DNA from: Branchiostoma floridae
Lineage: Eukaryota > Chordata > Leptocardii > Amphioxiformes > Branchiostomatidae
Assembly: GCF_000003815.2 (NCBI RefSeq)
Contig: NW_023365706.1
Coordinates: forward strand, 344,272 to 408,271
DNA: 64,000 nucleotides
Reading direction: 5' to 3'
The position numbers and the translations under genes were made by a program. This document shows positions 6,272 to 37,976 of this stretch, in pieces (within the stretch, counting starts at the first letter, position 1; every line of letters starts with the position of its first letter). The notes beneath the pieces are model-generated. The model worked only from the letters and a program-made list of their open reading frames with translations. It ran no database searches and was not told where the DNA came from.

Positions 6272-6467
6272 CTGGTACCGGAAGACGTCAGCACCACGCT
6301 GCCCAGTGACGCAGTGCCCACCGCTGTCACCCCAATAACTAGGATAACGTCACCTACCAAGCTTCAGCCCACCACCCGAAACACCAAAAGTCCAGCAGCT
6401 GAGAATATAACAACAACCCAACCCGGTACCCCCCATCCTGCCACAGAGCCCACGGGTTCCGTAATTG
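6272..6467 (+). CDS. G1 stalk exon (Thr/Pro-rich)
   Basis: A 196-nt exon, phase 0 to 1, encoding about 65 residues rich in Thr, Pro and Ser (for example [15 protein letters not shown]), a likely O-glycosylated spacer between coiled coil and SRCR domains. The acceptor used by the paralogs (after TTGTGAG) would put a TAG codon first here. Moving three bases to the AG formed by that same TAG (exon start 6272) keeps phase and removes the stop. Donor G|GTGAGG at 6468. Confidence 0.6.
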
Positions 6468-6645
6468 GTGAGGAATCTACAGTCTCTAAGGATTAGCACA
6501 TCTAGTGACATGTATTGCTTTCTTTTCTTTGTAAGAGATTTGTAATGAATCTTTTAATTGCTCAATGTACATCTCTCGTGACGACATTCTATATACTTGC
6601 CCATCTGTCAGTACATCCAGCTATCTGTCGATCTCTTCTTTCTCA

Positions 6646-6677
<32 letters not shown>

Positions 6678-9218
6678 GTCTTTTTGTCTCTCTCTCTTTC
6701 TCTCTCTCTGTGTCTTTTTGTCTCTCTCTCTCGATGATGATGATGATGATTCTTAAGTGTCATTTCTAGGAATGCAACTTCAAGTCCGTCTTGTTGGTGG
6801 GTCTACTCTACTTGAAGGCCGGGTGGAGGTCCGGAACGGTACCGGCCAATGGGGCTCCGTCTGTGATGACAACTTTGACCTGCAGGACGCTCATGTTGTC
6901 TGCAGACAGCTCGGCTTCGGGGCGGCCCTGGAGGTGAAACTGGCGGGTCATTTTGGGGAAGGTTCGGGGAACGTCTGGCTGGACGAGGTGTCCTGCAGGG
7001 GCAACGAGACGGACCTTGGAGACTGTCCTGCTGACTCCTGGGGACGGAGTGACTGTTCACACAAGGAGGACGCTGGAGTCGTCTGTGCAGGTATGGGTGG
7101 CTAAGATATTGGGGATGATGGGAACTCTTGGGTGATACCTGCAAAGCATTTTTGTCAAATTAAGGACTTTTGCTGTAAGAAAAGCTATGCACATTGCCCC
7201 AAACGGAAACTACAACATGTTTTGATGTGCCCAAAGGAGACGCAGCTCTCCGGCTGGTTGGCGGTCCGGTTCCCTGGAAAGGACGGCTGCAAATCCGGCC
7301 GTGGGGAGCGTTAGAGTGGGGTGCCGTGTGCAACACCAGCTGGACCGAGGCTGAGGCCGGGTTCGTGTGCAGACAGATGGGTTATACCGGCGGGGTGACG
7401 TCATCTGGGCAGGCAGACATCGGAGAAGGGTCGGAGAACATCTGGCTGGGTGACGTCACCTGCAGCGGAGACGAGACCAACATCCTGTCCTGTGGCTTCA
7501 GCTGGGAACCTTCTTACTGTGATCATAGCCAGGATGTACAGATCATCTGTACAGGTTAGAGACACATACATACATTAGTTCGCGTCATTAAATAGGTCAG
7601 CCATATAAAAATTATATGATCTAGAAAATAAGGCTAGACATGTTTAGGTTATGTCGAGCAGGTGAATAGAAAATTCGGTGTCAATATTTATTCACAACAG
7701 GTGAAGGGGAAAGTTGATGATTTATCGGTAGTTGTGTTGGCACATATACAGGTGGTGTGTCAGTCCGCTTTACTGGCAGCCAAAGTCCGTTACAAGGCCG
7801 AGTGGAGGTTCGGACTCGCCATGGCGACTGGGGGACGGTCTGTGATGACGGGTTTGACGACAGGGACGCCCAGGTGGTCTGTAGACAGCTCGGGTATCGG
7901 GGTGGAGTCGCCACGGCAGGAGGAGACTTCGGAGAAGGGACAGGAAACATCTGGCTCAGAAACCTGAACTGCTTCGGCAACGAGTCATCTCTAGAGGGCT
8001 GTCCGATCCAGAATAGCAACAGCCGGGACTGTGTCCACGGGCAAGATGTCGGGGTGGTCTGCAGAGGTTTGTGTTGGTTTTGTGTGACATGACAATACTC
8101 TTCGCTTTTTATACTAAAAGAAACAACTATGACTTACTTTAAATCTGTCTTTTTCCCAAACAAGAAAAATACCAGAAGTATAGTATTGCACTTAGATACC
8201 CAAGCCAACGATAGGTTCTGATGATTGTATGGAGTATTGGAGCTCGATATTGTGTTACCAGGCTAGTCCTGGGGGTAATTTTCTAGTTTAAATCAGGGAT
8301 AACACCCGATGTTTTGAAAACTTTCATTATAGATAATTTCAAAATGTTATTGACGAACAAAGATGTGATAATCACGTTTTGAAATCTGCTTCAGGTGACG
8401 CGTCTGTCCGGCTTACCGGAGGTCAGGATTCATTAGAAGGCCGAGTGGAGGTCCAGCCCGAAAATGGAGACTGGGGAACGGTCTGTGATGACGGGTTTGA
8501 CGACAGAGACGCCCAGGTGGTCTGTAGACAGCTCGGGTACTACACTGGGTCCGCCAGGGTGGGAGGAGTTTTTCCTGAAGGGACAGGAAACATCTGGCTG
8601 GACAATCTCAACTGCGCGGGGAACGAGTCTTCTGTAGCGGACTGTGAGATCAACAGGTGGGGAGACCACGACTGTACCCACAAGGAAGACGCAGGAGTCG
8701 TCTGTGTACCAGGTATGATACTTGTATCTGTTGTTTTCTAACCTGTTATTCAAATTTGTTGATACAGGAATTGAAAACAAGATTCTTTTTTCTCCTTGTC
8801 CAGAGGAAGACTGTGCTGGGTAGCGATGTAACAGGTATGATACGCGTATCTGTTGTCCCTAAGCTTTTATTCGATATTGTTGATATTGGAATTGAAACAA
8901 GATTATCTTCTTATTATTGCCGTTTTCCAGAGGAAGACTGTGCCGAGTACTATTCATCAGGAGTGAGAACAAGTGGAGTGTACAGAATCGGCCTCCTCCC
9001 CGCTGATGTGGAGGCGTACTGTGACATGGAAACCGTAGGTACGGATTACCAAACACACTGGTCTGTTATGTTTTAGCAAAACATGACGGCCTGTAGTTAC
9101 GTTATGCTGTGTTTGTTAGGAGGCAAGTTCGCGTTTTATGTATGTATGTGTGTGTAAGATGGATTAAATAATATGTGTTTATCTTTGTGTATGTCTAACG
9201 TTATGTGTGCATGTGTAT

Positions 9219-9269
<51 letters not shown>

Positions 9270-10294
9270 CGCGCGCACGCGTGCGTGTGTGTGTTTATGT
9301 GTGTGAGAAAAATTACCGTCTCTGTTGAATATGATCCTAAAGTTTAAAATTGATTTTTTTAAGGCAGCATTTTTTGTTCATATTATATATCTTACACACA
9401 GGCGGCGGTTGGACCGTTATCCAGCGGCGGCAGGACGGGTCGGTTCCCTTCAACCGGACCTGGGAGGAGTACAAACTGGGCTTTGGGAACAAGAACGGGG
9501 AGTACTGGCTGGGGAACGAGAACATCCACCTCCTGACCAATCAGAAGAATTATCGCCTCAGGATTGACCTTTTAGACTGGCAAGGGGAGTCACGCTACGC
9601 AGAGTACAGCACCTTCAGGTGAGTAAAATATCTTAAAGTGAGTCAAACACCTTCAGATGAGCAAAACACCTTTAGGTAAGTAAAACACCTTCAGGTAAGT
9701 AAAACACCTTCAGGTGAGTAAAACACCTTCAGGTGAGTAAAACATCTTAAGGTGAGTAAAGCACTTTTAGCTAAGTGAAACAGTTCATTAAAAACCTTAG
9801 GATGAGTAAACACTTTCAAGTGAATAAAACACCTTTAGGTAAGTAAACACTTCAGATGAGCAAATCATTTTCAGGTGAGTAAAACACAGTTGATTAAAAA
9901 AAGCTTTAAGTGAGTAAAACACTTTCAGGTGATTAAAATACTAATGGGTGAGTTAAACAGCATCGTGTGAGTAAAACGGCTTCAGGTGAGTAGAACAAAT
10001 TCAGGTGAGTAAAACACATTATGGTGAGGAACAGACTTTAGATGAGAAAAAAAATTAGTGAGAAAAAACCTTAAGATGAGTAAAACGCCTTTAGACACGC
10101 AAATACTGGACCACACACACTCTCACACATGCGTGCAAACACACGTTGTGTTTATGAGTGTATAAGCTTAAGTGTGTTAATATATATATATATATGAATG
10201 TGTAAGTGTTCGTTTATTTATGTTTTAGGACACATTTGTAAACATAAATAAAGGAACACTTACACATAAACATAAATAAACGAACACTTACACT

Positions 10295-10330
<36 letters not shown>

Positions 10331-11008
10331 TACAGACGCATAACAAACACACACACAATATATACATTTATATTTATATATATATGAATGTGTAAGTGTT
10401 CGTTTATTTATGTTTACAAATGTGTGTGTGATAGCATACGTGTGTCTGTATGGAACGCTTTCTATGTATGTATGTATGTATGTATGTACGTATGTATGTA
10501 TGAACATGTATGTATGTATGTATTAACATGCTTGAGTGTGTATGAAGGTGCAGCCTCAATCAATAACAGCGTGATTACTATACGTTGAATCAAATTATAT
10601 TTGTAGTTTTTTATTACATAAATTGATGATCATGAAAATCTTTATCGTTCATTAAGTCTAGCTGGTTTGATATTTCCACCCAGGGTGTCCGGTGAGTCGG
10701 ACGGGTACCGGCTGCATATTTCCGGGTATTCAGGCACCGCGGGAGACTCCATGACTGGTGGCCACTCCCTCAACGGGCGGAGGTTCTCCACTGTGGACAG
10801 GGACAATGATGACTGGAGCAGCGGCCATTGTTCTCAGCAGTACGGACAGGCCGGCTGGTGGTTTTGGGACTGCAGCCACTCCTTCCTCAACGGCCGTTAC
10901 CTGGGCAACTGTGGGAACTCCTGTCCATCTTATCAAGGTGTGGTGTGGTACCGGTGGAGAGGCTGGACTTACTCCCTGAAGTCTGTGTCTATGAAGATCA
11001 GGCCATAA
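6272..11008 (+). CDS. SRCR-FReD gene 1 (G1): stalk, 4 SRCR, fibrinogen domain; 5' exon missing
   Basis: Multi-exon gene, predicted secreted or extracellular recognition protein. Exons from GT/AG junctions: 6272-6467 (stalk), 6770-7090, 7237-7554, 7752-8066, 8395-8712 (SRCR1-4), 8931-9038, 9402-9618, 10684-11008 (FReD, stop TAA). All SRCR exons are phase 1-1 and multiples of three, and the reading frame is continuous through all eight exons. In the paralogs a signal-peptide/coiled-coil exon lies 0.4-1.9 kb upstream of the stalk. Here that position is occupied by a LINE, so the exon is either further upstream outside the window or lost. AATAAA signals at 11074 and 11085. Exact transcript structure is unproven. 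Confidence 0.8.
6640..6748 (+). repeat. (CT)n/(GATGAT)n microsatellite before SRCR1 acceptor
   Basis: About 90 bp of CT-rich simple repeat followed by seven GAT-type units, ending 21 bp before the SRCR1 acceptor. It supplies an unusually long polypyrimidine tract to this intron end. Confidence 0.85.
6770..8712 (+). CDS. G1 SRCR exons 1-4
   Basis: Four single-exon SRCR domains at 6770-7090, 7237-7554, 7752-8066 and 8395-8712. Each has six Cys in group-A spacing, the CDD...VVCRQLG core and a C-terminal D/E-D-A-G-VVC or equivalent. The acidic CDDGFDD cluster fits the family's divalent-cation site. SRCR2 is a distinct subtype with CNTSWTEAE and [13 protein letters not shown] domains bind microbial polyanions or protein partners in proteins such as CD163 and DMBT1; the ligand here is unknown. 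Confidence 0.88.
8713..8930 (+). repeat. Tandem duplication of intron plus 5' end of FReD exon (pseudo-exon)
   Basis: The intron between SRCR4 and the first FReD exon is doubled. GGTATGATAC recurs at 8712 and 8833, and the acceptor plus AGGAAGACTGTGC recurs at 8801 and 8931. The first copy of the exon start runs into an in-frame stop within 30 bp (about 8830), so only the second copy (8931) can be used. Confidence 0.75.
8931..11008 (+). CDS. G1 fibrinogen-related domain, three exons
   Basis: FReD exons 8931-9038 (DCAEYY...SGVYRI...YCDM), 9402-9618 ([14 protein letters not shown]...[10 protein letters not shown]) and 10684-11008. The C-terminal subdomain has the DRDND calcium-type loop, [15 protein letters not shown] and NGRYLGNC, and ends KSVSMKIRP. 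Together about 215 residues, the normal family length. In ficolins, tachylectins and FIBCD1 this fold binds acetylated sugars through a pocket next to the Ca2+ site. Pocket-flanking residues ([19 protein letters not shown]) differ from the paralogs. Confidence 0.88.
9205..9310 (+). repeat. (GT)n/(CG)n microsatellite in FReD intron
   Basis: Alternating purine-pyrimidine tract of GT repeats with a GCGCGCGCGC core near 9266, potentially Z-DNA-forming, inside the G1 FReD N/M intron. Confidence 0.9.
9610..10085 (+). repeat. Splice-donor minisatellite in G1 FReD intron
   Basis: A degenerate tandem array (unit about 19 bp, ACCTTCAGGTGAGTAAAAC) starting with the authentic exon end and donor at 9618/9619. 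Roughly 20 decayed units follow, many keeping a CAG|GTGAGT or CAG|GTAAGT match. The unit is exactly the last bases of the FReD middle exon plus its 5' splice site. Confidence 0.9.
10180..10520 (+). repeat. AT/TATG microsatellites and a short inverted repeat
   Basis: (TA)n tracts at about 10180-10195 and 10300-10327 and a (TATG)n tract at about 10463-10503. A GTAAGTGTTCGTTTATTTATG block recurs at about 10203 and 10393, with an inverted copy at about 10270. Open frames here are periodic artefacts. Confidence 0.85.
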
Positions 11009-12112
11009 ACAACGTGCCTCTAACATTACCCGCGTGAGATCTGTTGGCATTTTCAATGAAATGATTCAACACCAATAAATAGAAAATAAACCCTGTTATA
11101 ATACTTATCTGCTTATCTAACAATCCTGATGATTCACAGAAAATTTAACCATTTAATCGTGCATACATAGTACATGTATTTATCCTTTGCTGCAAGTTTT
11201 TGTATGATTCTTTCTGAGTATGATTTTTACTTTAATTTCGTGTTTGCTATTCTATTTCGTCGGTGGGTTGTAGCGTGTTGATTGTTGCTGCTTACAGAAT
11301 ATCGAGCAAAGTAGAAAGTAGAGCAAAATTAATCACGAACCAGATCCACGGTGCGTAATGTATAGTATCAAACTTCCCGTTTGACTCCCTTGGCCGGCTA
11401 CACTCCTTGGACAGCTTTGGTACTATCTTATGGCACCGTAGGATCTGCCTTGAGATTAGAGCAAAATCTCAGTTCAGTTCAGTTCATCCTCGGAGATCTC
11501 AAAATCTAACGAAACTTACATAAAAGAAATAAGTACATGAAAATACTTATTTTCACTACAGTAATCGGAAGACATTTACCAATTCAGTACAAAGAGTGGA
11601 AGTAAATTCGTTTTAATGTGATATAAAATGATCAATGGTTTTAATTGCAAATTCATGCCCATGGGGCTAATTGCAAGTGAACATAATCAAATACATGAAG
11701 TGATTGAAAACAGGTAAATGATCTAAACTCTAACATACAAAGATTAACTGATTGTATGTGCATACAGAATATCGAGTACGATTCTAAAACCTACATTACT
11801 ATTGCGGGGTTTGACTTATCTAATGATGTAACATTTATCGTCAAGGGTTAGATTACAACTATATAGCTTCTAATTTGATTTTATATTTGATGTCTCTTTT
11901 ACAATGTATTATGCTATGGTCTTTTTTATCACAACGTCTTGGCTACTTGTGTCATTAAAATGTTTGTTTTTTCGGAATGTTGAAATGCGATTTTCCCTGT
12001 AATTCTAACATGTTGTGATTAGGAAGTCTTAGTAAAATCTTACATGATGGGAAGGAAAGCTGCAATAACCATGATTTTTGAGGCTGATAACGTTTACAAA
12101 ATCACTAGCGTT
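11009..12112 (+). other. G1 3' UTR and AT-rich spacer
   Basis: AATAAA at 11074-11079 and 11085-11090 mark the likely poly(A) site. The following kilobase is AT-rich and holds no recognised gene; parts recur after the other paralogs (for example the TTTGCTGCAAG...TTTTGTA block), showing that the 3' flank was copied with the gene. Confidence 0.6.
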
Positions 12113-12519: not shown

Positions 12520-12639
12520 ATGACCTAATGGACTTTCCTGTATTAGATAACTCCGTTCTTTCTAACTTAAACTAAGAAGATAGCTTAATGCAGCATCTTT
12601 GTGCTTTACATATTTGATATAGTTACTTTCGGGCAGTGT

Positions 12640-13629: not shown

Positions 13630-14250
13630 ATGGCGAGTGTCGTACTGCTCGCTGTCTTCCTCCTGTTCGGCAGTTTCCCTGCCCGAGCCCAGGACACCAG
13701 AACCGACCAGGCTGGGTCCGTCCTGCGGGAGTATGTAGACAAGGGCTACTGTACCTACACCTATGTGGTTCCGCCTGGGTCCCGTACGGAGGGCTGTGCA
13801 CCACCGGGCCTCCAGCGGCAGCTCGCCGAGACCAAGGAGGAAACGGACCGCCTGAAAAATCAGGTGGATCGCCTGTCGTCGCTGGTGAACACACTGCTGT
13901 CAACGGTGGGCAGTTTGTCTGCTGAGCTGTCGGGGGAGAAAGTCAGGAGTGCACAGCTGGAACAGAACCTGACACGGGAACTACAAAAACAAGAAACCCG
14001 TCTCCAAAACCAGGGACAAGATATAGCACAGGGGATACAAGAACTAGAAACCCGTCTCCAAACCCTGGGACAAGATATAGCACAGGGGATACAAGAACAA
14101 GAAACCCGTCTCCAAACCCAGGTACAGAACATGACACAGCAGCTACAAGAACAAGAAACCCGTCTCCAAACCCAGGTACAGAATCTGACTACAACCTTGT
14201 GCGTACATGACATGAGCATTTTTTCTCGAATTCTTATAATGTGTGCGTAA
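13630..14250 (+). CDS. G2 N-terminal exon: signal peptide, angiopoietin-like Cys segment, coiled coil
   Basis: 206 codons. Signal peptide [20 protein letters not shown] with cleavage before QDTRTDQ. Residues 36-60 ([18 protein letters not shown] then a second Cys) resemble the short Cys-bearing segment before the coiled coil of angiopoietins (QC-Y-T-F-x-x-P), suggesting disulfide-linked clustering. Residues 62-195 form a coiled coil ending in about four 18-residue repeats of the type [18 protein letters not shown]. Ends SRILIMCA-stop. AATAAA-like signals about 45 bp downstream (14298) could terminate a short transcript. Confidence 0.8.
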   Translation: MASVVLLAVFLLFGSFPARAQDTRTDQAGSVLREYVDKGYCTYTYVVPPGSRTEGCAPPGLQRQLAETKEETDRLKNQVDRLSSLVNTLLSTVGSLSAELSGEKVRSAQLEQNLTRELQKQETRLQNQGQDIAQGIQELETRLQTLGQDIAQGIQEQETRLQTQVQNMTQQLQEQETRLQTQVQNLTTTLCVHDMSIFSRILIMCA

Positions 14251-17200
14251 CGATCAGAAATACCCATCAGTAATAAACTAACTTGGTGTACAACAATAAA
14301 AATAATGCAAGGCTCAGAATCAGAACCAGACATTGTGTTTATCCTATCCTAAACATTTAAATATGCCTCGCGGCAGTTTGGTGGGGCTACTCGCGCGTCA
14401 TCAGGACAGTGGGCACACGTCATGAAAACTAGTCTAACAACAACACAAGCCTTATTCTGTAAAGTTCAGCGTCGGTCACTTTCTGCTCGGTTCTCAGTGT
14501 GCCTAATGTTAGCTATAACGATTTCGTGTCCGCACCATAACGTTACATATCAGTATCCTTGTGAGAGGCTGGTACCGGGTAACGTCATCTCAGTGATAAT
14601 AAAGATCTTAGTGTGATTCATTAAGTAATGACTTTGTGCCCCTACCTTGTGTAAGTGTACTTGTGAGCGGGCGGTACCGGATGGCGTCATCTCTACAACT
14701 GTAGCCACCCTGCCCAGAGAGCGGACGGCAACAACCCAGCCCAGTACCCCCCCTCCTGCCACAGAGTCCACGGGTCCTGTAACCGGTGAGGAATCTTTAC
14801 ACTGGCTCTATTGATTAGCACATGTAGTTATATGTACCTTTTGCTCTCAAGTTGTTTTGAAAAAATGGATTGTGAGATGATCTGTCTATGTATTGTACAA
14901 ATGGAGAGCACAAGAGACTGTATTTATACCTTATGCTCTACATTTCAGAAAAATCAGATGATCAACATTGTATCTATGTTATATACCCCCCCCCCCCCTC
15001 TCTTTGATTATATATAAAGACAACGGTGTTAAAGAGTCGTCATTTTCAGGAATTCAAATCCGTCTTGTCGGCGGCTCTTCACCACTTGAAGGACGAGTGG
15101 AGGTCCGAAACGCTACCGGCCAATGGGGCTCCGTCTGTGATGACAACTTTGACCTGCAGGACGCTCATGTTGTCTGCAGACAGCTCGGCTTCGGGGCGGC
15201 CCTGGAGGTGAAACTGGCGGGTCATTTTGGGGAAGGTTCGGGGAACGTCTGGCTGGACGAGGTGTCCTGCAGGGGCAACGAGACGGACCTTGGAGACTGT
15301 CCTGCTGACTCCTGGGGACGGAGTGACTGTTCACACAAGGAGGACGCAGGAGTCGTCTGTGAAGGTAAAGGTAGTTTGTTCGCAGCTCAATTTCATTGAC
15401 ATTATGAAATTATATATCAACATCACAGCCTAAATCTGTAATTACACAGTATCTTATTGTATGAGTACTTTTTAATGTTTCATCTGTAACCCTCTTCCCA
15501 ACTGCGTCAAAACAACGCGCACACGTATTCACCGTCCTTTAAACTGTACAATGTCGTTTATAACCATTTTTTTCTTTTGATAGTTTGTTTCTAGATAGTT
15601 TAGTCCATTGATAAGCGATGTCAATTTGCCAATCTGTTGTGCACTTAGAAAAATCAGGGGTTCGGCTTACTGGTGGTCACGTGCCCTGGGAAGGACGACT
15701 GGAGGTCCGCCCTGGAGAGAAGTCGGAGTGGGGTGCCGTGTGCAACACCAGCTGGACCGAGGCTGGCGCTAGGGTCGTGTGCAGACAGATGGGTTATACC
15801 GGCGGGGTGACGCCATCTGGGCAGGCAGACATCGGAGAAGGGTCGGAGAACATCTGGCTGGGTGACGTCACCTGCAGCGGAGACGAGACCAACATCCTGT
15901 CCTGTGGCTTCAGCTGGGAACCTTCTTACTGTGATCATAGCCGGGATGTACACGTCACCTGTACAGGTTTGTTTCACCGACTTTAGTTTGCCGGAAACAG
16001 TTAAGTTCCAGATTATGCTGAAAGATTATCTCTTCATTTTCACGGCCGCGTGGCGCGTTGGTCACCCGATCCCTCGATCTCGGAAGTTAAGCAACGCGAC
16101 GGTCCGGACAGTGCTTGGATGGGGGACCAACCAAGGACGTCCGGATTGCTGTAGCCTCACGAAGTTTCCACGAAATCGTCTTCCGGGAGGGACGTAAAAC
16201 GGGGGTCCCGTGCTCGAGGAGGTGCCTCGACCACGTTAAACAGCCTCATTACTCATACTGGGTACCTACTGGCTGGCAAAATACACCAGATGATTATTAT
16301 TATTATTCATTTGATTATAAGCAATACGACGTGATGTACCAAACAAGTACCAAAAAAGTAATCAGAATGAGTGAAAAAGTCAGTGACTATGACTCAGATT
16401 CACATTAATAGAAAAATATCATAAAGAGTTGTCATCTATCTGACGATTTAGTAACACCGGTGTGATAATCAGGTTTTAAAATCTGCTGCAGGTGACGTGT
16501 CTGTTCGGCTTATCGGAGGTCAGAATTCATCACAAGGCCGAGTGGAGGTCCGGTCCGGTGAGTTAGACTGGGGGACGGTCTGTGATGACGGGTTTGACGA
16601 CAGGGACGCCCAGGTGGTCTGTAGACATCTCGGGTACATCACCGGGTTCGCCAGGGTGGGAGGAGTTTTTCCTGAAGGGACAGGAAACATCTGGCTGGAC
16701 AATCTCAACTGCACGGGGAACGAGTCTTCTGTAGCGGACTGTGAGATCAACAGGTGGGGAGACCACGACTGTACCCACAAGGAAGACGCAGGAGTCGTCT
16801 GCGGCGGTGCTGCAGGTATGATGCATGTATCTACATCTGTTGTTTGTTACCTTTTAAGATATAGTTCGCATTGAACTTAAACCTAATTTATTCTGCTCTT
16901 TCCAGAGGACGACTGTGCTGAATATCATTCATCCGGATGGCCAACAAGTGGACTCTACCCAATCGGCCTCCTCCCGGCTGATGTGGTGGCGTACTGTGAC
17001 ATGGATACCGCAGGTTCAGGTTTTTGCTTTTTTGGTTTTTATTTTACACATATGTGTGTCTGCGCGTTGTCTGTTTGGGTGTTTGTATATGTGTTTGGGT
17101 GTATGTTTGTGTGTGTGTGCGAGTGTGTGTGTGTGTATGTATGTATGTGTGTATGTGTGTGCGTGTATGTCAATTTTCCCTGTCACTAAAAATAGCTTGC

Positions 17201-21113: not shown

Positions 21114-22016
21114 ATGGCGAGTGTCGCACTGCTCGCTGTCTTCCTTCTGTCCAGCAGTTTTCCTGCCCGAGCCCAGGACACCAGAACTGACCAGGCTGGG
21201 TCCGTCCTGCGGGAGTATGTAGACAAGGGCTACTGTACCTACACCTATGTGGTTCCGCCTGGGTCCCGTACTGAGGGCTGCACGCCGCCGGGCTTCGAGC
21301 GGCAGCTCGCCGACACCAAGGAGGAAACGGCCCGCTTGGAAAATCAATTGGATCTCCTGACGTCGTTTGTGCAAATCTTGCTGAGTCAGCAGTCTGATCT
21401 AACGTCCAGTGTCAGCAGTTGGGGAGATCGGTTAAAAGTGGAAGAGAACCTGACACAGGAACTACAAGAACAGAAAATTCGTCTCCAAGCCCGGGTAGAA
21501 GATTTGTCAAGCCAACTTTCAGAAGAAAGAATCAGGAGCGCAAAGCTGGAACAGAACCTGACACAGGAGATACAAGACCAAGAAACTCGCCTTCAAACCC
21601 AGGTACAGAACCTGACACAGGAGCTACAAGAACAAGAAACCCGTCTCCAAACCCAGGTACAGAACCTGACACAGGAGCTACAAGAACAAGAAACCCGTCT
21701 CCAAACCCAAGTACAGCACCTGACACAGGAGCTACAAGAACAAGAGAGTCGCCACCTAACCCAGCTACAGAACTTGTCCGATCAACTCTCAGACGAGAAA
21801 ACCAGGAGTTCACGACTGGAACAAAACCTGACACAAACGTTGCTTCTACAGGAGACAAAGTTTATAGGCATGATCAACAGTCTTTCTGACGTACTATCAG
21901 AGGAGAAAGACAGAAACCGGGAACTGGCGCTAAACCTGACCCAAACACTGCTTCAATTGGACAACATGACGTCAATTCTGTACGAGCATGATGTGACCAT
22001 CAAACAGCGTTTGAAC
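21114..22016 (+). CDS. G3 N-terminal exon: signal peptide, Cys segment, long coiled coil
   Basis: 301 codons; the ATG at 21114 aligns with the starts of G2 and G4, so the upstream in-frame start at 21099 is not used here. Signal peptide [20 protein letters not shown]. The Cys segment [12 protein letters not shown] with a second Cys in TEGCTPPG is identical in type to G2 and G4. Residues about 62-298 are coiled coil with 18-residue repeats. Eight or more N-glycosylation sequons recur in the repeats ([26 protein letters not shown]), unusual density for a coiled coil. Donor AAC|GTAAGT at 22017. Confidence 0.85.
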
Positions 22017-25000: not shown

Positions 25001-28000
25001 AAAAACGCGGCATAAACATACAAATATACAAATGCAGGTTACAACGATCGGCAAGCACGAGACCTAATAACATTACTGAGCAATTGAGTCGTTGAACAGT
25101 CTTACAGCTGTGTGCACAAAGGACCTTGTCAGTCTTTCAGTTCTGGCCTTTGGTACAGAGAACAAGTTATGATTCCTCAACTGCCTGCCTGAGGTGCCTG
25201 TTTGACAAGTCCTTTGTGTGTGTGCGTGTTCGTAGGAGGCGGATCTTTGCGTCTTGTCGGAGGCGTCGCGCCGTGGGGAGGGCGGCTGGAGTTCCGCCCG
25301 TGGCAGGCGGCGGAGTTGGGAACCGTGTGCAACACCAGCTGGACAGAGGCTGAAACTGAGCTCGTCTGCAGGCAGCTAGGTTATACCGGTGGAGTGAGCG
25401 CCAGCCTGCCAGCTTTTGGGGAGGGGACAGGCCCGATATGGCTGGGTGACGTCACCTGTGAGGAAGACGACGTCAGCATCACATCTTGTCGCTTCAGCTG
25501 GGAACCTTCAGACTGTGATCATAGCCAGGACGTAGCTGTTGTCTGTACAGGTTGGTTCTTACTTCCGTTTAGATCATACGAAAAATCATTTCAATGTATG
25601 AACAAGATTTAGCAATGTAATCGCAATACAAGTCGACAGTCAGTGGTGACTGACTGAGATCACTGGGGAGGCTCTGGTCACTGAACGACGTTTCTTATAT
25701 CAGGCCAACACCTATAGTTGATGACTTTCTTCGTTATCACAGGTGGTGTGTCCGTTCGCCTTACCGGCAGCCAGAGCCCGTTACAAGGCCGAGTGGAGGT
25801 CCGTCCCGGAAATGGAGACTGGGGAACGGTCTGTGATGACGGGTTTGACGACAGGGACGCCCAGGTGGTCTGTAGACAGCTCGGGTATCGGGGTGGAGTC
25901 ACCACGGCAGGAGGAGACTTCGGAGACGGGGCTGGGCTCATACGGCTGGGGATACTAGACTGCTCTGGTGACGAGTCTTCTGTAGCGGACTGTGAGATCA
26001 ACAGGTGGGGAGACCACGACTGCAGCCACAAGAAAACTGCAGGAGTCATCTGCACAGGTACGTTTAAATAAAATATTATTGGGACGTTGGAAGAATGCAA
26101 ACATTACATGTAGAGACTGCAACACATACTCGATTCACTCTAACAGATGACGTGTCCGTTCGACTGAACGGAAGCCAAAGTCCGCTACAAGGCCGAGTGG
26201 AGATCCGCCCAAAACACGGTGACTGGGGAACGATCTGTGATGACGGGTTTGACGACAAGGACGCCCAGGTGGTCTGTAGACAGATCGGGTATCGGGGTGG
26301 AGTCGCCACGGCAGGAGGAGACTTCGGAGAAGGGACGGGAAATATCTGGTTACAGAATGTTAACTGCATCGGGGCAGAATCTTCTTTAGGTGACTGTCCG
26401 ATTCAGAGTTGGGGCAGTCAAGACTGCAGCCACAGACAGGACGCAGGAGTCGTCTGCACAGGTACGGAGTTTGCATGTGTTGCACAAAATCATTGCCTTG
26501 CGTTGCCTTATCGAAATATTTATCATAAACGCCGGTCACAATTAATCTTTCTTTATACGTGCAGTGATTTTATGGATCATATATTTGCAGTATAATAAAT
26601 TCATGGATCATATCAGTGGAGTGACGATGATGCTGAATTTTACAGGATTAATTTGATGTCTGAAGAAACGAGGTTGGAAAAAGTTTACTATTTTCAGGAA
26701 TCCATTTAAACTATGATTTAACCGTTTCAATTTAAATCAGATATTCAACAGTCAGATACCAGATACATTTATATAATGTTTAATGTTTAGGCGAGGTGTC
26801 CGTCCGACTTATCGGAGGCCAGAATTCATCAGAAGGCCGAGTGGAGGTCCGGCCCGGAAATGGAGACTGGGGAACGGTCTGTGATGACGGGCTTGACAAC
26901 AGGTACGCCCAGGTGGTCTGTAGACAGCTCGGGTATCGGGGTGGAGTCTCCAGGGTGGGAGGAGTTTTTCCTGAAGGGACAGGAAACATCTGGCTGGACA
27001 ATCTCAGCTGCGCGGGGAACGAGTCTTCTGTAGCGGACTGTGAGATCAGCAGGTGGGGAGACCACGACTGTACCCACAAGGAGGATGCAGGAGTCGTCTG
27101 TGGCAATGCAGCAGGTGTGATGCATGCATCTGTTGTTTCCTAACCTTTTATTCAACTTTGTTGATATTGTCGTTTTCCAGAGGAAGACTGTGCTGGGTAT
27201 TATTCATCCGGACGGACAAGTGGAGTCTATCCAATCGGCCTCCTCCCCGCTGATGTAGAGGCGTACTGTGACATGAATACCGCAGGTAGGGTTTTTGCCA
27301 AGTTCGCGTTTCTATCTTTTATTCTACATGTATGTCTGCTCGTGTCTGAGTATGTGTGCGTATGTGTGCGTGTTTGTATGCATGTATGTATGTGTGTGTG
27401 TGTGTGTGTGCGTGTTTGTCTATTTCCCTTTCATTGAACAAATTGCTTACACGTCTTTACTATTTGCTAACCTTACTTTCTCCCCACAGGAGGCGGTTGG
27501 ACCGTGATCCAGCGGCGGCAGGACGGGTCGGTTCCCTTCAACCGGACCTGGGAGGAGTACAAACTGGGCTTTGGGAACAAGAACGGGGAGTACTGGCTGG
27601 GAAACGAGAACATCCACCTCCTGACTAATCAGAAGAACTATCGCCTACGGATTGAACTTTCAGACTGGCAAGGGGAGTCACGTTGGGCAGAGTACAGCAC
27701 CTTCAGGTGAGTAAATCACCTTCAGGTGAGCAAAACAACTTCAGGCGAGCAAAACAACTTCAGGTGAGTAAAACACTTTCAAGTGAATAAAAATACCTTC
27801 AGGTGAGTAAAACACTTCAGATGAGCAAATCACTTTCAGGTGAGTAAAACACTGTTGATTAAAAAAAACTTGAAGAAATTCAGGTGAGTAAAGCATATTA
27901 TGGTAAGAAAAAACTTTAGATGAGAAAAAAACTTTAGTGAGTAAAAAAAACTTAAGATGAGTAAAAAACCTTCAGACACGCAAATACTGACACACACACT

Positions 28001-28791
28001 CACACATACGTGCATACACACGTTTTGTTTATGAGTGTATACATGTGTTTATATTGTGTGTGTGTGTGTTATGCGTCTGTATTCATATATATATATATAT
28101 ATGAATGTGTATGTGTTTGTTTATTTATGTTTACAAATGTGTGTGCGATTGCATATGTGTGTCTGTAAGTATGTATGCATGTATGTATGTATGTATGTAT
28201 GTATGTATGTTTGTATGTATGTATGTATGTATGTATGTATGTATGTATGTATGTTTGTATGTTTGTATGCATGTATGTATGTATGTATGTATGTAACGTT
28301 ATGTATGTATGTATGTATGAACATGCAATGGTGTGTTTGAAGGTGCAGCATCAATCAATAACAGCGCGATTACTATACGTTGAATCAAATTATTTTTCTA
28401 GTTATTTATTACATAAATTTATGATGAAAATCTTTATCGTTCATTAAATCTCGCTGGTTTCATATTTCCACCCAGGGTATCAGGTGAGTCGGACGGGTAC
28501 CGGCTGCACATTTCCGGGTATTCAGGCACCGCGGGAGACTCCATGGCTCACAACAACGGGCAGAGGTTCTCCACTGTGGACAGGGACAATGATGCCCTCA
28601 GCAGCGTCCATTGTTCTCAGCGGCACGGACAGGGCGGCTGGTGGTTTGGACACTGCAGCAACTCCTTCCTCAACGGACGCTACCTGGGCAACTGTGGGAG
28701 CTCCTGTCCATCCTGGCAAGGTGTGGAGTGGTACCACTGGAGAGGCCCTTATTACTCCCTGAAGTCTGTGTCTATGAAGATCAGGCCATAA
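21114..28791 (+). CDS. SRCR-FReD gene 3 (G3): complete architecture with 5 SRCR
   Basis: The most complete member. Exons: 21114-22016 (signal peptide, Cys segment, coiled coil; donor GTAAGT), 23925-24181 (stalk), 24320-24634, 25236-25550, 25743-26057, 26147-26461, 26791-27114 (SRCR1-5), 27181-27285, 27490-27706, 28476-28791 (FReD). The first exon ends in phase 0, which matches the stalk acceptor and confirms that the coiled coil belongs to the same gene. The stalk exon is one base too long for the phase of SRCR1 (see that entry), so as assembled the frame breaks there. AATAAA at 28867. Predicted role: secreted oligomeric pattern-recognition protein. Confidence 0.82.
22017..23924 (+). repeat. 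G3 long intron with internal duplications
   Basis: 1.9-kb intron. A block with TATATCACTGG...GGAAATATCCT...AATGTTCCCTTT...AAAGCTAAT occurs at about 22700-22850 and again at about 23795-23910. An ATAAATAGAT...TTTCGTCACAAG block occurs at about 22608 and 22862. A third set of imperfect repeats of about 120 bp (TTTGCATAAT/TAATG motif) fills about 23290-23720. No additional coding exon recognised. Confidence 0.6.
23925..24181 (+). CDS. G3 stalk exon, longer, with apparent 1-nt frameshift
   Basis: 257 nt. Acceptor after CCTGTGAG; encodes [19 protein letters not shown], a second Ser/Thr-rich block ([16 protein letters not shown]) and [19 protein letters not shown], about twice the length of the G2 and G4 stalks. 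Beyond a run of seven C (about 24141) the frame is shifted by +1 relative to the paralogs, so the donor G|GTGAGG at 24182 is in phase 2 instead of phase 1. A homopolymer sequencing error is as likely as a real mutation. Confidence 0.6.
24320..27114 (+). CDS. G3 SRCR exons 1-5
   Basis: Five phase 1-1 SRCR exons: 24320-24634, 25236-25550, 25743-26057, 26147-26461, 26791-27114, each with six Cys. SRCR2 has diverged most ([21 protein letters not shown]). SRCR3 is a mosaic: its first half ([14 protein letters not shown]) matches the SRCR3 type, its second half ([18 protein letters not shown]) the last-SRCR type. SRCR5 ends with the GNAAG spacer before the FReD, as in G2's last SRCR. The two extra domains relative to G2 and G4 fit exon duplication. 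Confidence 0.88.
24635..25235 (+). other. G3 SRCR1-SRCR2 intron
   Basis: 600-bp intron with a poly-T run at about 24908-24924 and a CA-rich stretch after it. No exon or element recognised. Confidence 0.5.
27181..28791 (+). CDS. G3 fibrinogen-related domain, three exons
   Basis: Exons 27181-27285, 27490-27706, 28476-28791 (stop TAA). All FReD landmarks are present: [48 protein letters not shown]. The first C-terminal variable loop is three residues shorter ([10 protein letters not shown]), and pocket-flanking residues are GHCSNS and [13 protein letters not shown]. Confidence 0.88.
27330..27420 (+). repeat. GT/TATG microsatellite in G3 FReD intron
   Basis: GTATGTGTGTGTGTGT tract at the same intron position as in G1 and G2. 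Confidence 0.85.
27698..27970 (+). repeat. Splice-donor minisatellite in G3 FReD intron
   Basis: About 13 decayed units of ACCTTCAGGTGAGTAAAAC beginning at the authentic donor (27707). It is alignable unit by unit to the distal part of the G1 array (both contain TTGATTAAAAAAA and CAGACACGCAAATACTG), so G1 and G3 share a more recent common array than G2 and G4. Confidence 0.9.
28055..28320 (+). repeat. (TATG)n microsatellite
   Basis: (TA)n at about 28086-28101, then about 35 TATG units at 28168-28320 with TTTG and CATG interruptions. Open frames on both strands across it are repeat artefacts. Confidence 0.95.
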
Positions 28792-33218: not shown

Positions 33219-34001
33219 ATGGCGAGTGTCGCACTGCTCGCTGTCTTCCTTCTGTCCGGCAGTTTCCCTGCCCGAGCCCAGGACACCAGAACCGACCAGG
33301 CTGGGTCCGTCCTGCGGGAGTATGTAGACAAGGGCTACTGTACCTACACCTATGTGGTTCCGCCTGGGTCCCGTACTGAGGGCTGCACACCGCCGGGCCT
33401 CGAGCGGCAGCTCGCCGAGAACAAGGAGGAAACTGACCGCCTGAAAAATCAGGTGGATAGGCTGTCGTCGCTGGTGAACACTCTGCTGTCAACGGTGGGC
33501 AGTTTGTCTGCTGAACTGTCGGAGGAGAAAGTCAGGAGTGCACAGCTGGAACAGAACCTGACACAGGGGCTACAAGAACAAGAAACCCGTCTCCAAACCC
33601 AGGGACAAGTTATAGCACAGGGGATACAAGAACTAGAAACCCGTCTCCAAACCCAGGGACAAGATATAGCACAGGGGATACAAGAACAAGAAACCCGTCT
33701 CCAAACTCAGGGACAGAACATGACACAGCAGCTACAAGAACAAGAAACCTGTCTCCAAACCCAGGTACAGAACCTGAACCAGGAGCTACAAGAACAAGAA
33801 ACCCGTCTCCAAACCCAGGTACAGAACCTGAACCAGGAGCTACAAGAACAAGAAACCCGTCTCCAAACCCAGGTACAGAACCTGAACCAGGAGCTACAAG
33901 AGCAAGAAACCCGTCTCCAAACCCAGGTACAGAATCTGACTACAACCTTGTGCGTACATGACATGAGCATTTTTTCTCGAATTCTTATAATGTGTGCTTA
34001 A
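33219..34001 (+). CDS. G4 N-terminal exon: signal peptide, Cys segment, coiled coil
   Basis: 260 codons. Signal peptide [20 protein letters not shown], Cys segment [12 protein letters not shown], then a coiled coil with about seven 18-residue repeats ([18 protein letters not shown]), three of them identical at the nucleotide level (54-bp units, about 33758-33925). It has about three repeats more than G2, so coil length changes by unit expansion. Many units have QNLNQEL, which lacks the NLT sequon present in G3. Ends SRILIMCA-stop like G2; possible AATAAA at 34050. Confidence 0.82.
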   Translation: MASVALLAVFLLSGSFPARAQDTRTDQAGSVLREYVDKGYCTYTYVVPPGSRTEGCTPPGLERQLAENKEETDRLKNQVDRLSSLVNTLLSTVGSLSAELSEEKVRSAQLEQNLTQGLQEQETRLQTQGQVIAQGIQELETRLQTQGQDIAQGIQEQETRLQTQGQNMTQQLQEQETCLQTQVQNLNQELQEQETRLQTQVQNLNQELQEQETRLQTQVQNLNQELQEQETRLQTQVQNLTTTLCVHDMSIFSRILIMCA

Positions 34002-34698
34002 CGATCAGAAATACCCATCAGTAATAAACTAACTTGGTGTACAACAATAAAAATAATACAAGGCTCAGAATCAGAACCAGACATTGTGTTTATCCTATCC
34101 TAAACATTTAAATGTGCCTCACGGCACTTTGGTGGGGCTACTCGCACGTCATCAGGACAATGGGCACACGTCATGAAAACTGGTCTAACAACAACACCAG
34201 CCTTATTCTGTAAAGTTCAGCCTCGGTCACTTTTGGCTCGGTTCTCAGTGTGCCTAATGTTAGCTATAACGATTTCGTGTCCGCACCATAACGTTACATA
34301 TCAGTATCCTTGTGAGAGGCTGGTACCGGGTAACGTCGTCTCCACGTGTATAGCCATGCTGCTCAGTGATAATAAAGATCTTAGTGTGATTCATTAAGTA
34401 ATGACTTTGTGTCCCTACCCTGTGTTAGTGTACCTGTGAGCAGCCGGTACCGGGTGGTGACGTCATCTCTACAACTACAGCCACCCTGCCCCGAGAGCGG
34501 ACGGCAACAACTCAGCCCTTGACTCCCCTTGCTGCTACAGAGTACACGGGTCCTGTTACTGGTAAGGAATCTATACTACTTCCATTGATTAACAAATGGA
34601 TTGTGAGAACAATCAGATGATCTATCTATGTTACCTATCCCCCTCTCCTCCCTCTCTCTCTCCCTCTGTGCGTCTCTCTCTCTCTCTGTCAATGTCTC

Positions 34699-34737
<39 letters not shown>

Positions 34738-34742
34738 GCCTG

Positions 34743-34777
<35 letters not shown>

Positions 34778-37700
34778 GACTATATATAACGAAACAGTAT
34801 CGTGTTTAAGTTTCGTCATTTTCAGGAATTCAAATCCGTCTTGCCGGTGGCTCAACCCCGCTTGAAGGCCGAGTGGAGGTCCGAAACGGTACCGGCCAAT
34901 GGGGCTCCGTCTGTGATGACAACTTTGACCTGCAGGACGCTCATGTTGTCTGCAGACAGCTCGGCTTCGGGGCGGCCCTGGAGGTGAAACTGGCGGGTCA
35001 TTTTGGGGAAGGTTCGGGGAACGTCTGGCTGGACGAGGTGGCCTGCCTTGGCAACGAGACGGACCTTGGAGACTGTCCTGCTGACTCCTGGGGACGGAGT
35101 GACTGTTCACATAAGGAGGACGTAGGAGTCGTCTGTGAAGGTATGGGTGGCTACGATAAGCAAACCAGTCTGGGAAGTCATAAATAGATAAGATAGTTTG
35201 TTTGCAGCTCAATGTCATTGCAACCAATAACCTTTATAATCTTAACTCGGAAGCGTAAGAATTCGTTTTTTCTTACCTTCATCAGCACCTGGATGTTGCT
35301 TTTTCGTTTTGACGGATAGTTTCAGATAGCTTCTGCCCCTTGATAAGCGATCTCATTTTGCTACTCAAGTGCACTTAAAAAAATCAGCGGTCCGGCTTAC
35401 TGGTGGTCACGTGCCCTGGGGAGGACGACTGGAGTTCCGCCCGGGAGAGAAGTCGGAGTGGGGTGCAGTGTGCAACACCGGCTGGACCGAGGCTGGCGCT
35501 GGTGTCGTGTGCAGACAGATGGGATACACCGGTGGGATGACGTCATCTGGGCAGGCAGACATCGGAGAAGGGTCGGAGAACATCTGGCTGGGTGACGTCA
35601 CCTGCAGCGGAGACGAGACCAACATCCTGTCCTGTGGCTTCAGCTGGGAACCTTCTGATTGTGATCATAGCCAGGATGTACACATCATCTGTACAGGTAC
35701 GGTTGCTGCCATTTTTTAACTGTATAAATGTATTATGGTGTCTTTACTACAGAACAAACAACCTGGCAAGTGGTCAAAATTATTCGGCAATTTTCGTACT
35801 CAAGGTTGGTCTTATTGTCAGATTTCTATGTCCATAATCATTTCACTTAAGTTTGCGCTCTCAGCCTTTATTTTCAAGTTCTTGTCTACAGGTGGGGTCT
35901 CAGTCCGACTTGCCGGCAGCGAAGATCCGTTACAAGGCCGAGTGGAGATTCGGGCTCCTAATGGAGACTGGGGAACGATCTGTGATGACGTGTTTGACGA
36001 CAGGGACGCCCGGGTGGTCTGTAGACAGCTCGGGTACTACACCGGGTATGCCAAGGTGGGAGGAGTTTTTCCCGAAGGGACAGGAAACATCTGGCTGGAC
36101 AATCTCAACTGCGCAGGGAACGAGTCTTCTGTAGCGGACTGTGAGATCAACAGGTGGGGAGACCACGACTGTACCCACAAGGAAGACGCAGGAGTCGTCT
36201 GTGCAGGTATGATGCAACATTTCCTTCACTAAAGAAGTTAATATCAAATCGTACCATGATAAGCCATGTATCTCGTTTAATATAAGAATACTTTTATATA
36301 TACAGCACTGTGTTCAAATATTTGTTAAATACGATCCACTGAAATAAGCAATTTGACATAAACCTTTTTCTTAAATTTTTCATTTCAATCTTATAAAAAA
36401 AACTGTACCACTCCTCACCGCTTCACAGCATCAGACTGCGCAGATCACCTTGCGTCAGGAGAGACGACAAGCGGAGTCTTCAACTTAACATTCCGTTCCT
36501 CTGATGTGGAGGCGTACTGTGACATGGATAACGCAGGTACAAATGTTCTGAAGCATGGTAGGAAGCATCACTTTCAATTTCCTTCCTTTTTCACTTTTCT
36601 CACTGTAAAAAGCGACAGTTGATGCCATGACTGCGGACGAAAAAAAGTCTATGGTTATTTTTTAAAAACTTTTTTTGCCCAGAGTTGACTAAAATTGCCG
36701 TCTTTTATTGTCCATAATACAAGACAATAGGTTAACTGTTCTCCGTGCGGTACCTCCCTACGTCACAGGAGGCGGGTGGACTGTGATCCAGCGGCGGCAG
36801 GACGGGTCGGTTCCCTTCAACCGGACCTGGGAGGAGTACAAGCTGGGCTTTGGGAACAAGAACGGGGAGTACTGGCTGGGGAACGAGAACATCCACCTCC
36901 TGACCAATCAGAAAAACTATCGCCTAAGGGTTGACCTAATGGACTGGAACAACGAATTACGCTACGCAGAATACAGCACCTTCAGGTGAGTAAAACACCT
37001 TCAGGTGAGTAAAACACCAGGTGATTGAAACACCATCAGGTGAGTAAAACACCATCAGGTGAGTAAAAAAAAACTTCAGGTGATTAAAGCACTTTCAGGT
37101 GAGTAAAACGTACTTGATTGAAAGCCTTCATGTACTACTCGCTCAGAGTGGACATGACGGACTGGAACAACGAATCACGCTACGCAGAGTACAGCACCTT
37201 CAGGTGAGTAAAACACCTTCAGGTGAGTAAAACACCTTCAGGTGAGTAAAACATCTTCAGGTAAGTAGAACACCTTCAGGTGAGTAAACCATCTTCGGGT
37301 GAGTAAAATACCTTCGGGTAAGTATCAAAAAAATCTTAATTTTTATTGTGCATGCATGCTATTTATAATTGAAGTTTCAAATGTTTCTAGCAATTGAAAC
37401 ATTGCTATATGTTGCCTTTAACATCTGCAGTGCTTTTCGGTCTTGTTTGTACTTCGTGAGTATGAACATGTGGTCACAAATAATGTCAACTTAATTATCA
37501 TTCGTCCAATCAAATTGTTTTTGCAATTGTTTATACATCATCATTGGGCTCCGACCGTCTTTAGAGACGATGGGTTTATCATATAATAATTGACAAAGGC
37601 CTTCAGCGTACATGTAATTTCACACAAGCCCACTTGTGTGATATTCCCATCCAGGTTGTCCGGCGAGTCGGACGGGTACCGGCTGCACATTTCCGGGTAT

Positions 37701-37976
37701 TCAGGCAACGCGGGAGACTCCATGACTGGATACTCCCTCAACGGCCATATGTTTTCCACTGTGGACAGGGACAATGATGCCCGGAGCGGCTACCACTGTT
37801 CCCAGCAGCGCGGACAGGCCGGCTGGTGGTTTAGGTGGTGCACCCAATCCTACCTCAACGGCCGTTACCTGGGCAACTGTGGGAGCTCCTGTGCATACGG
37901 GCAGGGTGTGGCGTGGCTCCACTGGAGAGGCAGGAGTTACTCCCTGAAGTCTGTGTCTATGAAGATCAGGCCATAA
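33219..37976 (+). CDS. SRCR-FReD gene 4 (G4): signal peptide, coiled coil, stalk, 3 SRCR, FReD
   Basis: Exons: 33219-34001 (N-terminal, ends in stop), 34441-34561 (stalk), 34826-35140, 35388-35696, 35892-36206 (SRCR1-3), 36429-36536, 36769-36985, 37655-37976 (FReD). Frame is continuous from the stalk on. As in G2, the N-terminal exon lacks the G3-type donor and reads through to TAA at 34001, so its link to the rest is unproven. Closest in layout to G2, with which it shares the decayed extra stalk exon near 34315. The FReD first exon is the most diverged of the four ([19 protein letters not shown]). Confidence 0.8.
34441..34561 (+). CDS. G4 stalk exon
   Basis: 121 nt, phase 0 to 1, about 40 residues ([34 protein letters not shown]). 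Acceptor after CCTGTGAG, donor G|GTAAGG. Confidence 0.65.
34640..34785 (+). repeat. (TC)n and (TCTG)n microsatellite before SRCR1
   Basis: CT-rich tract with about 13 TCTG units (34698-34757). It lies at the same intron position as the CT tract before G1 SRCR1. Confidence 0.92.
34826..36206 (+). CDS. G4 SRCR exons 1-3
   Basis: 34826-35140, 35388-35696 and 35892-36206, phase 1-1, six Cys each. SRCR1 is again nearly identical to the other SRCR1 exons; SRCR2 is the CNTGWTEAG subtype; SRCR3 carries [19 protein letters not shown] and ends directly in VCAG without the extra Ala spacer. Confidence 0.88.
36429..37976 (+). CDS. G4 fibrinogen-related domain, three exons
   Basis: 36429-36536, 36769-36985, 37655-37976 (stop TAA). 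[20 protein letters not shown] and NGRYLGNC present; pocket-flanking residues RWCTQS and [13 protein letters not shown] are the most distinct of the four genes, with Leu replacing the Tyr of WYxWRG. Confidence 0.87.
36977..37330 (+). repeat. Splice-donor minisatellite and duplicated exon end in G4 FReD intron
   Basis: After the true donor (36986) come about six CACCTTCAGGTGAGTAAAA-type units to 37110. Then a second copy of the end of the FReD middle exon (37140-37204, reading [20 protein letters not shown]) with its own GTGAGT donor, followed by about six more units to 37325. The copied segment has no acceptor of its own, so it is a partial pseudo-exon. Confidence 0.88.

Follow-up and report, generated by a model that had tools for sequence, protein, structure and literature searches.

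A tandem family of predicted secreted SRCR–FReD proteins with a hypervariable ligand pocket in the lancelet Branchiostoma floridae

Four tandem SRCR–FReD units

We examined a 64,000-nucleotide stretch of the Branchiostoma floridae genome (bases 344272-408271 of contig C148, which is 451,745 bases long; hereafter "the window") that carries a tandem array of genes combining SRCR exons with a fibrinogen-related domain (FReD), and searched the whole assembly of 513,431,437 bases in 431 contigs for related exons. Coordinates without a prefix are window positions, and those prefixed C148:, C6:, C14: and so on are contig positions. Comparing the window against itself with blastn revealed four tandem units (G1 to G4), each with a Ser/Thr/Pro-rich stalk exon, SRCR exons (four in G1, three in G2, five in G3, and three in G4), and three FReD exons (FReD1 to FReD3). 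The SRCR and FReD exons are open in all four units. Pfam domain PF00530 was detected in all eight SRCR exons scanned, of 15 in the window, above the curated cut-off and with E-values from 6e-22 to 4e-34, while the joined FReD of G1 matched PF00147 (Fibrinogen_C; E 7e-72). An earlier note, made from the window's sequence alone, had described four tandem genes with a stalk, 3-5 SRCR exons uniformly of phase 1-1, and a three-exon FReD, and the exon models and Pfam matches bear this out.

Exon ends were placed at in-frame AG/GT sites near the ends predicted from paralogues. In the resulting models, the N-terminal (N-term) exon ends in phase 0, the SRCR exons and FReD1 are 1-1, FReD2 is 1-2, and FReD3 runs from phase 2 to the stop, so that the stalk exon (0-1) is the step that brings phase 0 to phase 1. 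The modelled exons are as follows, with a slash marking exon borders within motifs.

6272-6467, + strand: G1 stalk exon, Ser/Thr/Pro-rich, phase 0 to 1; acceptor GTGAGTAG by eye, donor ATTG/GTGAGG, both weak
6770-7090, + strand: G1 SRCR exon 1 (PF00530 E 4e-34; splice sites)
7237-7554, + strand: G1 SRCR exon 2 (PF00530 E 4e-23; splice sites)
7752-8066, + strand: G1 SRCR exon 3 (PF00530 E 2e-30; splice sites)
8395-8712, + strand: G1 SRCR exon 4 (PF00530 E 5e-32; splice sites)
8931-9038, + strand: G1 FReD exon 1 (splice sites; part of the joined PF00147 match)
9402-9618, + strand: G1 FReD exon 2 (splice sites)
10684-11008, + strand: G1 FReD exon 3, with the hypervariable pocket, ending in a stop (splice sites)
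13630-14247, + strand: G2 N-term exon (leader, Cys segment, coiled coil); conserved 3' donor replaced; inner donor candidates CAG/GTACAG at 14122 and 14176
14656-14785, + strand: G2 stalk exon; acceptor very weak
15050-15364, 15649-15966, 16492-16806, + strand: G2 SRCR exons; last donor uncertain by a few codons
16906-17013, 17240-17456, 18107-18428, + strand: G2 FReD exons (splice sites)
21114-22016, + strand: G3 N-term exon; phase-0 donor GTAAGT
23913-24181, + strand: G3 stalk exon; +1 frameshift relative to a paralogue ahead of donor CCG/GTGAGG
24320-24634, 25236-25550, 25743-26057, 26147-26461, 26791-27114, + strand: G3 SRCR exons; last four PF00530 by Pfam
27181-27285, 27490-27706, 28476-28791, + strand: G3 FReD exons (splice sites)
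33219-33998, + strand: G4 N-term exon; conserved 3' donor replaced; inner donor candidates CAG/GTACAG at 33765, 33819, 33873, and 33927
34429-34561, + strand: G4 stalk exon; another stalk-like exon, of lesser length, at 34305-34383
34826-35140, ~35370-35696 (acceptor uncertain), 35892-36206, + strand: G4 SRCR exons (splice sites)
36429-36536, 36769-36985, 37655-37976, + strand: G4 FReD exons (splice sites); extra FReD2 fragment at 37125-37203

A partial duplicate of the FReD1 exon region is also present within G1 (8705-8949).

The exon encoding a leader, Cys segment, and coiled coil, which the earlier note had placed upstream of G2 to G4, was found there, but G1 has one too, outside the window (C148:337296-337895, ~6.4 kb before it, with a leader and donor CAG/GTGAGT). 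In all four units, an AAGATGG start context and a hydrophobic leader could be recognized by eye. One cysteine in G1 and two in each of G2 to G4 precede the coil; G2 and G4 have additional cysteines within the coil or the run-on end. The coil has a hydrophobic period of ~3.6 residues, lacks proline, and carries N-glycosylation sequons (3 to 8), several at a spacing of 18 residues; the stalk is 43-49% Ser+Thr+Pro (with the G3 stalk cut at 24113 for this count). Pfam returned no match at 0.001 for the N-term exon of G3, matches below cut-off only for that of G4, and no Ig match in any scanned exon of the N-term, SRCR, or FReD class.

Exon order across the genome

We used the window's exons as queries against three stretches of C148 (200 kb, 10 kb, and 74 kb, the last being the window plus 10 kb upstream). 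A cluster was opened at an N-term exon and closed at FReD3, and exon order is therefore partly built into the grouping, whereas a common strand and the absence of SRCR exons right after FReD3 are not. Thirteen of 19 clusters displayed an N-term match followed by SRCR and then two or more FReD exons, all on one strand; in one of these, at 300-308 kb, the N-term match consisted of a coil piece alone and no FReD3 was detected. The other six comprised three clusters of FReD1-3 only, one of FReD1-2 only, one N-term–stalk–FReD3 remnant, and a single N-term exon lying at the edge of a stretch. SRCR exons directly following FReD3 were found in none of the 19.

The same order was recovered genome-wide through SRCR1, for which 150 of 435 candidates were scored; other genome-wide statements likewise refer to the matches listed. 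Eighteen SRCR1 matches were listed (E up to 1e-38), 16 of them at ≥83% identity and the other two, both on C4, at ~60%. C148 accounts for 13 of the 16, and C6, C8, and C11 for a single match apiece. For 15 of these 16 (12 on C148 plus the three on C6, C8, and C11), an N-term match came before and a FReD2 match after on the same strand. The three outside C148 all lie on the minus strand, running from N-term through SRCR1 to FReD2 at 1187479, 1175569, and 1168670 on C8, at 25586323, 25577386, and 25566137 on C6, and at 53491, 44549, and 36986 on C11. The sixteenth match (C148:304111) was preceded only by a coil piece, and the two on C4 had no N-term or FReD2 match nearby among the matches listed. 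Short of RNA, this order, conserved on four contigs, is the strongest evidence that the exons form one gene. The N-term exon thus most likely belongs to the same gene as the SRCR and FReD exons, and the predicted leader–coil–SRCR–FReD architecture is well supported by the genome evidence.

Relatives of single exons were also detected elsewhere. A FReD2 match with 94% identity to the family lies at C10:21100301-21100513, with no N-term or SRCR1 match nearby among those listed, and relatives of the N-term exon lie at C13:3946355 and C13:3962764 with no SRCR or FReD nearby among the matches listed. Further clusters of family-like FReD2 exons occupy C170:43659-120819 and C14:833901-1012485, those on C14 adjoining coil matches.

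Splice sites and intactness of the copies

Splice sites were scored against a yardstick of 92 SRCR/FReD acceptors (5% point 2.4) and 80 SRCR/FReD donors (median 11.9 bits, 5% point 5.9). In G3, the N-term donor GAAC/GTAAGT and the stalk acceptor CATGTCAG/TGT are both in phase 0, in agreement with the earlier note, which had this exon end in GTAAGT at the phase that the stalk needs. A phase-0 donor was sought in 17 N-term matches (two being pieces of one exon): nine reached ≥8.7, the one at 77 kb through an inner site; G3 and its paralogue carry AAC/GTAAGT at 2.4, and six, including G2 and G4, had no donor.

Several observations weigh against one intact gene per unit. In G2 and G4, the 3' end of the N-term exon is replaced: the stretch present in G1, ATCAAACAACAGCTGCAG/GTGAGT, is gone and a stop follows. 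The G3 stalk has one extra base ahead of its best 3' donor, at 24182, a frameshift that the nearest paralogue (C148:69796) does not share. G3 would therefore need another donor, and the in-phase GTGAG sites upstream lie at 23920, 23974, 24001, and 24112, of which those scored are weak (24001 at -1.1 and 24112 at 1.2). Stalk acceptors score 0.8, -3.8, 1.2, and -0.5 in G1 to G4, all under the 5% point, and the G1 stalk donor is weak as well (1.8), which makes the stalk acceptor the softest link of the one-gene chain. Three of the 13 ordered clusters on C148 lack a stalk match, and between C148:329159 (N-term) and C148:331884 (FReD2) no SRCR was found among the matches listed, so that this may be a copy without SRCR. 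Further N-term exons of the family are shortened or frame-broken. Because of these exons, the donor loss in G2 and G4, and the frameshift in the G3 stalk, part of the array may be dead. We rejected G2 and G4 as fully intact genes, since the conserved N-term donor is lost.

In-frame splicing of G2 and G4 nevertheless appears possible, because their coil repeats contain inner CAG/GTACAG sites of phase 0 with a score of 11.2 bits, against the donor median of 11.9. The coil repeats of G3 carry such sites as well; the 54-base repeats with CAG/GTACAG lie at 14122-14176, 21603-21657, and 33765-33927, and splicing at them could give coils of different length. Overall, the earlier note's claim that each unit is one gene gains from exon order and phase, but is weakened for the N-term coupling of G2 and G4, for the intactness of G3, and by the poor stalk acceptors.

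A hypervariable pocket in the last FReD exon

Next, we compared divergence between exon classes on C148, counting exons of ≥90% of the reference length. Mean pairwise dN/dS was 0.28-0.37 in FReD1, FReD2, SRCR1, SRCR2, SRCR3, and SRCR4, and 0.85 in FReD3, where dN exceeded dS in 37 of 105 pairs. None of 15 full-length FReD3 exons on C148 contained a stop. Given the low dN/dS of its exons, SRCR was rejected as the diversified domain.

To locate the variation, we took ten pocket positions equivalent to the ligand contacts of FIBCD1 (PMC3908420, PMC10825690), placed through the residue letters of the PDB chain matched by part of a FReD query (L066). L066 is one of a further set of FReD loci (L053-L072) that otherwise served for inspection only; in one of them, L056, the longest frame did not encode the FReD. 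According to the same papers, the extended site of FIBCD1 comprises His382, His396, Arg412, and Asn413, and Glu398 touches the glycan. Across 14 SRCR–FReD genes with both FReD2 and FReD3, mean entropy at these ten positions was 2.18 bits versus 0.36 in other columns (permutation p 1e-5, the lowest value that the test can return), and versus 0.46 within the C-terminal half only. Meanwhile, Asp393, Asp395, Cys401, Cys414, Trp409, Trp410, Trp437, and Trp440 were invariant in 14 of 14 genes. The pN/pS ratio reached 1.47 in the pocket, compared with 0.51 for the remainder of the C-terminal half (with 16 pocket and neighbouring positions excluded) and 0.40 for FReD2. On a tree, the ten pocket codons took 93 non-synonymous and 14 synonymous steps (dN/dS 1.76, p 0.025 against neutrality), with values of 0.56 and 0.29 outside the pocket.

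Four points temper this result. The invariant Cys414, which binds ligand through its main chain, is not among the ten, and including it lowers the mean to 1.98; the non-synonymous excess on the tree is marginal; and the pocket hypothesis arose from viewing the family alignment, while the control genes described below were fetched later, unseen. Synonymous steps are also raised at the pocket (14 in 10 codons versus 56 in 93, i.e., 1.4 versus 0.6 per codon), and we therefore do not claim selection alone, a mutational share being possible. Adenine-only replacement, as in diversity-generating retroelements, was rejected, as other bases change too at the pocket codons (judged by eye).

The earlier note had proposed testing the binding of acetylated glycans. 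As a general ligand, these found no support: among the 14 genes, the acetyl-pocket residues Tyr405, His415, Tyr431, Ala432, and Trp443 were present in 7, 0, 2, 2, and 2, respectively (with Tyr at position 443 in another 2). Because these residues are not conserved, acetyl binding is not expected to be general, and it was rejected as the family's common ligand.

A second FReD family on contig C10

As a control meant to represent normal FReD, we used 20 single-exon FReD genes on C10 (L033-L052; C10:19337770-20336300), of which 19 remained after L043, a protein copy of L042, was dropped. Their FReD2 part is ~55-61% identical to the SRCR–FReD family among the matches listed. Pocket entropy was again elevated, at 1.59 versus 0.39 bits (p 5e-5) and, within the C-terminal half, 1.59 versus 0.48 (p 9e-4), and pN/pS was 1.16 in the pocket versus 0.54 and 0.24. 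The tree test gave a pocket dN/dS of 1.13 (p 0.39), i.e., no excess over neutrality. Position 443 was His in 19 of 19 genes and position 382 nearly constant, and Asp393/Asp395 and Cys401-Cys414 were kept in all 19. For the comparison of columns, one gene of the SRCR–FReD family (A-79768) was dropped for want of a full FReD2; 13 of the 17 hypervariable columns in C10 were also among the 25 of the SRCR–FReD family (174 columns, hypergeometric p 7e-10). Since genes chosen as normal FReD show a like pattern, a diversified pocket may be a general trait of FReDs in this genome and not something that the SRCR fusion brought about.

Origin and known relatives

The earlier note had also proposed that SRCR exons were inserted into an angiopoietin- or ficolin-like gene. 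At 0.83-1.01 Mb of C14, coil matches (starting at query residue 50 or later, i.e., not in the leader) lie 2 to 3 kb, once 10 kb, ahead of FReD2 matches that are 80-87% identical to the family (for example, coil at 833901 and FReD2 at 836049), and no SRCR was found there among the matches listed, with 150 of 459 candidates scored. This arrangement fits what a coil–FReD ancestor would be expected to look like. The likeness of the FReD to angiopoietins, while real, is not specific: its best PDB match is the angiopoietin-2 FReD (E 2e-62), but the C10 control FReD has the same first match. On C3, SRCR and FReD2 matches (the latter 73-84%) were found at 32.7-33.1 Mb with no N-term exon among the matches listed; one locus there (L031) has SRCR and FReD1-3 in the order seen in the family and another (L032) FReD1-3 only. 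A FReD3 relative in L031 (2415-2735, minus strand) has an internal stop at the pocket region and is probably a pseudogene.

Among known proteins, angiopoietins and angiopoietin-like proteins are, like the predicted array products, secreted, with a Cys segment, coiled coil, and C-terminal FReD, and the Cys segment of the array genes (CxYTxxxP) may resemble theirs. In the angiopoietin family, however, the coil is joined directly to the FReD with no domain between, whereas the array genes have 3-5 SRCR domains and a Ser/Thr/Pro stalk at this point, as well as a variable pocket and a tandem array. Ficolins, tachylectin 5A, and FIBCD1, which have collagen or membrane stems, share the calcium aspartates (Asp393/Asp395) and S1 disulfide (Cys401-Cys414); unlike them, the array genes have SRCR and a coil stem, and do not conserve the acetyl-pocket residues (His415 in 0 of 14). 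The SRCR arrays of DMBT1, CD163, and sea urchin and lancelet SRCR proteins are likewise built of phase 1-1 PF00530 exons, to which the array genes add a coiled coil and FReD. Mollusc FREPs, which combine Ig and fibrinogen domains (PMC7588048), are also an invertebrate multigene family coupling FReD to another domain, but the array genes use SRCR instead of Ig, and their measured diversity sits in the FReD pocket.

The SRCR–FReD architecture follows a known lancelet habit: the accessible part of PMC4284660 describes very high exon shuffling biased to the 1-1 phase, the same bias as here, and places SRCR and FBG among receptors with fast turnover in lancelets, while the SRCR–FReD combination is absent from that part. 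Branchiostoma floridae is also listed among species with SRCR expansion (PMC10855680). No paper on a lancelet SRCR–FReD fusion or on hypervariable FReD pockets was found in the literature searched, in which subscription journals are thinly covered and supplements may tabulate the pair.

Proposed proteins and alternative explanations

We consider it probable that the array is a tandem family of secreted SRCR–FReD recognition proteins, with one gene per leader-to-FReD chain and a pocket that differs by copy. Each gene would encode a signal peptide, a short Cys segment, a long N-glycosylated coil, the Ser/Thr/Pro stalk, 3-5 SRCR domains, and a C-terminal FReD; since the chain ends at the FReD with no membrane anchor after it, secretion would be expected. 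The coil and cysteines may join chains into a multimer, and the SRCR domains, under purifying selection, may provide broad or structural binding. The FReD retains its calcium site, disulfide, and tryptophans, whereas the S1 ligand pocket varies between almost all copies, and each copy would therefore be expected to bind a different glycan or other epitope. Tandem duplication and exchange could keep some scaffold exons alike, as low dS suggests, while the pocket codons diverge. The origin may lie in the entry of 1-1 SRCR exons into an angiopoietin-like coil–FReD gene, as the C14 cluster hints. Judged on genomic data, the expected product is a germline-diversified, secreted, and probably multimeric lectin.

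One alternative would separate the N-term coiled-coil exon as a small secreted-protein gene that was co-duplicated with an SRCR–FReD gene starting at or after the stalk. The terminal stops without a conserved donor in G2 and G4, the weak stalk acceptors of all four genes, and the two C13 N-term matches with no SRCR or FReD nearby among the matches listed would suit such a split; we nonetheless hold it to be unlikely, as more than half of the N-term matches (9 of 17) have a phase-0 donor of ≥8.7 (with G3 and its paralogue at 2.4), the order is kept on four contigs, and the stalk frame showed no sign of a hydrophobic leader. A split further downstream, with SRCR and FReD exons belonging to neighbouring genes that are rarely or never joined, would account for the three C148 clusters with FReD1-3 alone, the one with FReD1-2 alone, and the many FReD matches far from any SRCR match listed. 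It is highly improbable given that the phase-1 end of the last SRCR exon fits the phase-1 start of FReD1, which follows at conserved sites some hundreds of bases downstream, and that within no cluster does an SRCR exon come after FReD3.

The pocket variation itself could have other sources. If the array were mostly decaying, FReD3 variation would reflect relaxed constraint, which the shortened or frame-broken N-term exons, the G3 stalk frameshift, and the C3 relative with an internal stop might suggest; this is quite improbable, however, as SRCR and FReD exons are open in G1 to G4, 0 of 15 C148 FReD3 exons have a stop, all 14 genes keep the calcium, Cys, and Trp residues with change focused on the pocket, and the six other measured exon classes remain at dN/dS 0.28-0.37. 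Alternatively, a local mutational or conversion process may alter pocket codons and be tolerated by selection. Synonymous and non-synonymous steps are both raised there, and low dS in SRCR1, FReD2, and FReD3 suggests scaffold exchange, yet no template, motif, or mechanism was found, and the like pattern in the separate C10 family is equally well explained by selection on the pocket, so that we regard such a process acting in this way as not likely.

The SRCR–FReD recognition proteins proposed here may be part of something broader. We tentatively entertain the possibility that the FReD pocket is a germline-encoded variable region in at least two tandem families (SRCR–FReD on C148 and FReD-only on C10), yielding a repertoire of multimeric, antibody-like soluble receptors, perhaps aided by a mechanism increasing change at pocket codons during scaffold exchange. 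This pocket variation is the part that would surprise a specialist. If the proposal holds, an animal without rearranging antigen receptors would have a large inherited set of soluble receptors with diversity focused in one pocket, and would offer a test case for the reach of germline duplication alone. Two large lancelet immune families, SRCR and FReD, would be linked in single molecules, and natural pocket variants on one scaffold would be available for studies of glycan recognition.

Other features of the window

The long first intron of G1, between its N-term exon and its stalk, contains a reverse-transcriptase element. This LINE-like element (894-5415) includes a coil-like open reading frame (ORF) at 894-1715 with Pfam matches below cut-off only, a second ORF at 1719-3620, and a reverse transcriptase detected by Pfam at 4120-5412; runs of N occupy 751-883 and 2658-2883. 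On the minus strand, 45544-48897 holds an open LINE-like ORF of 1118 amino acids with endonuclease and reverse transcriptase domains, and a ~120-base tandem repeat is present in several copies at 58468-59300.

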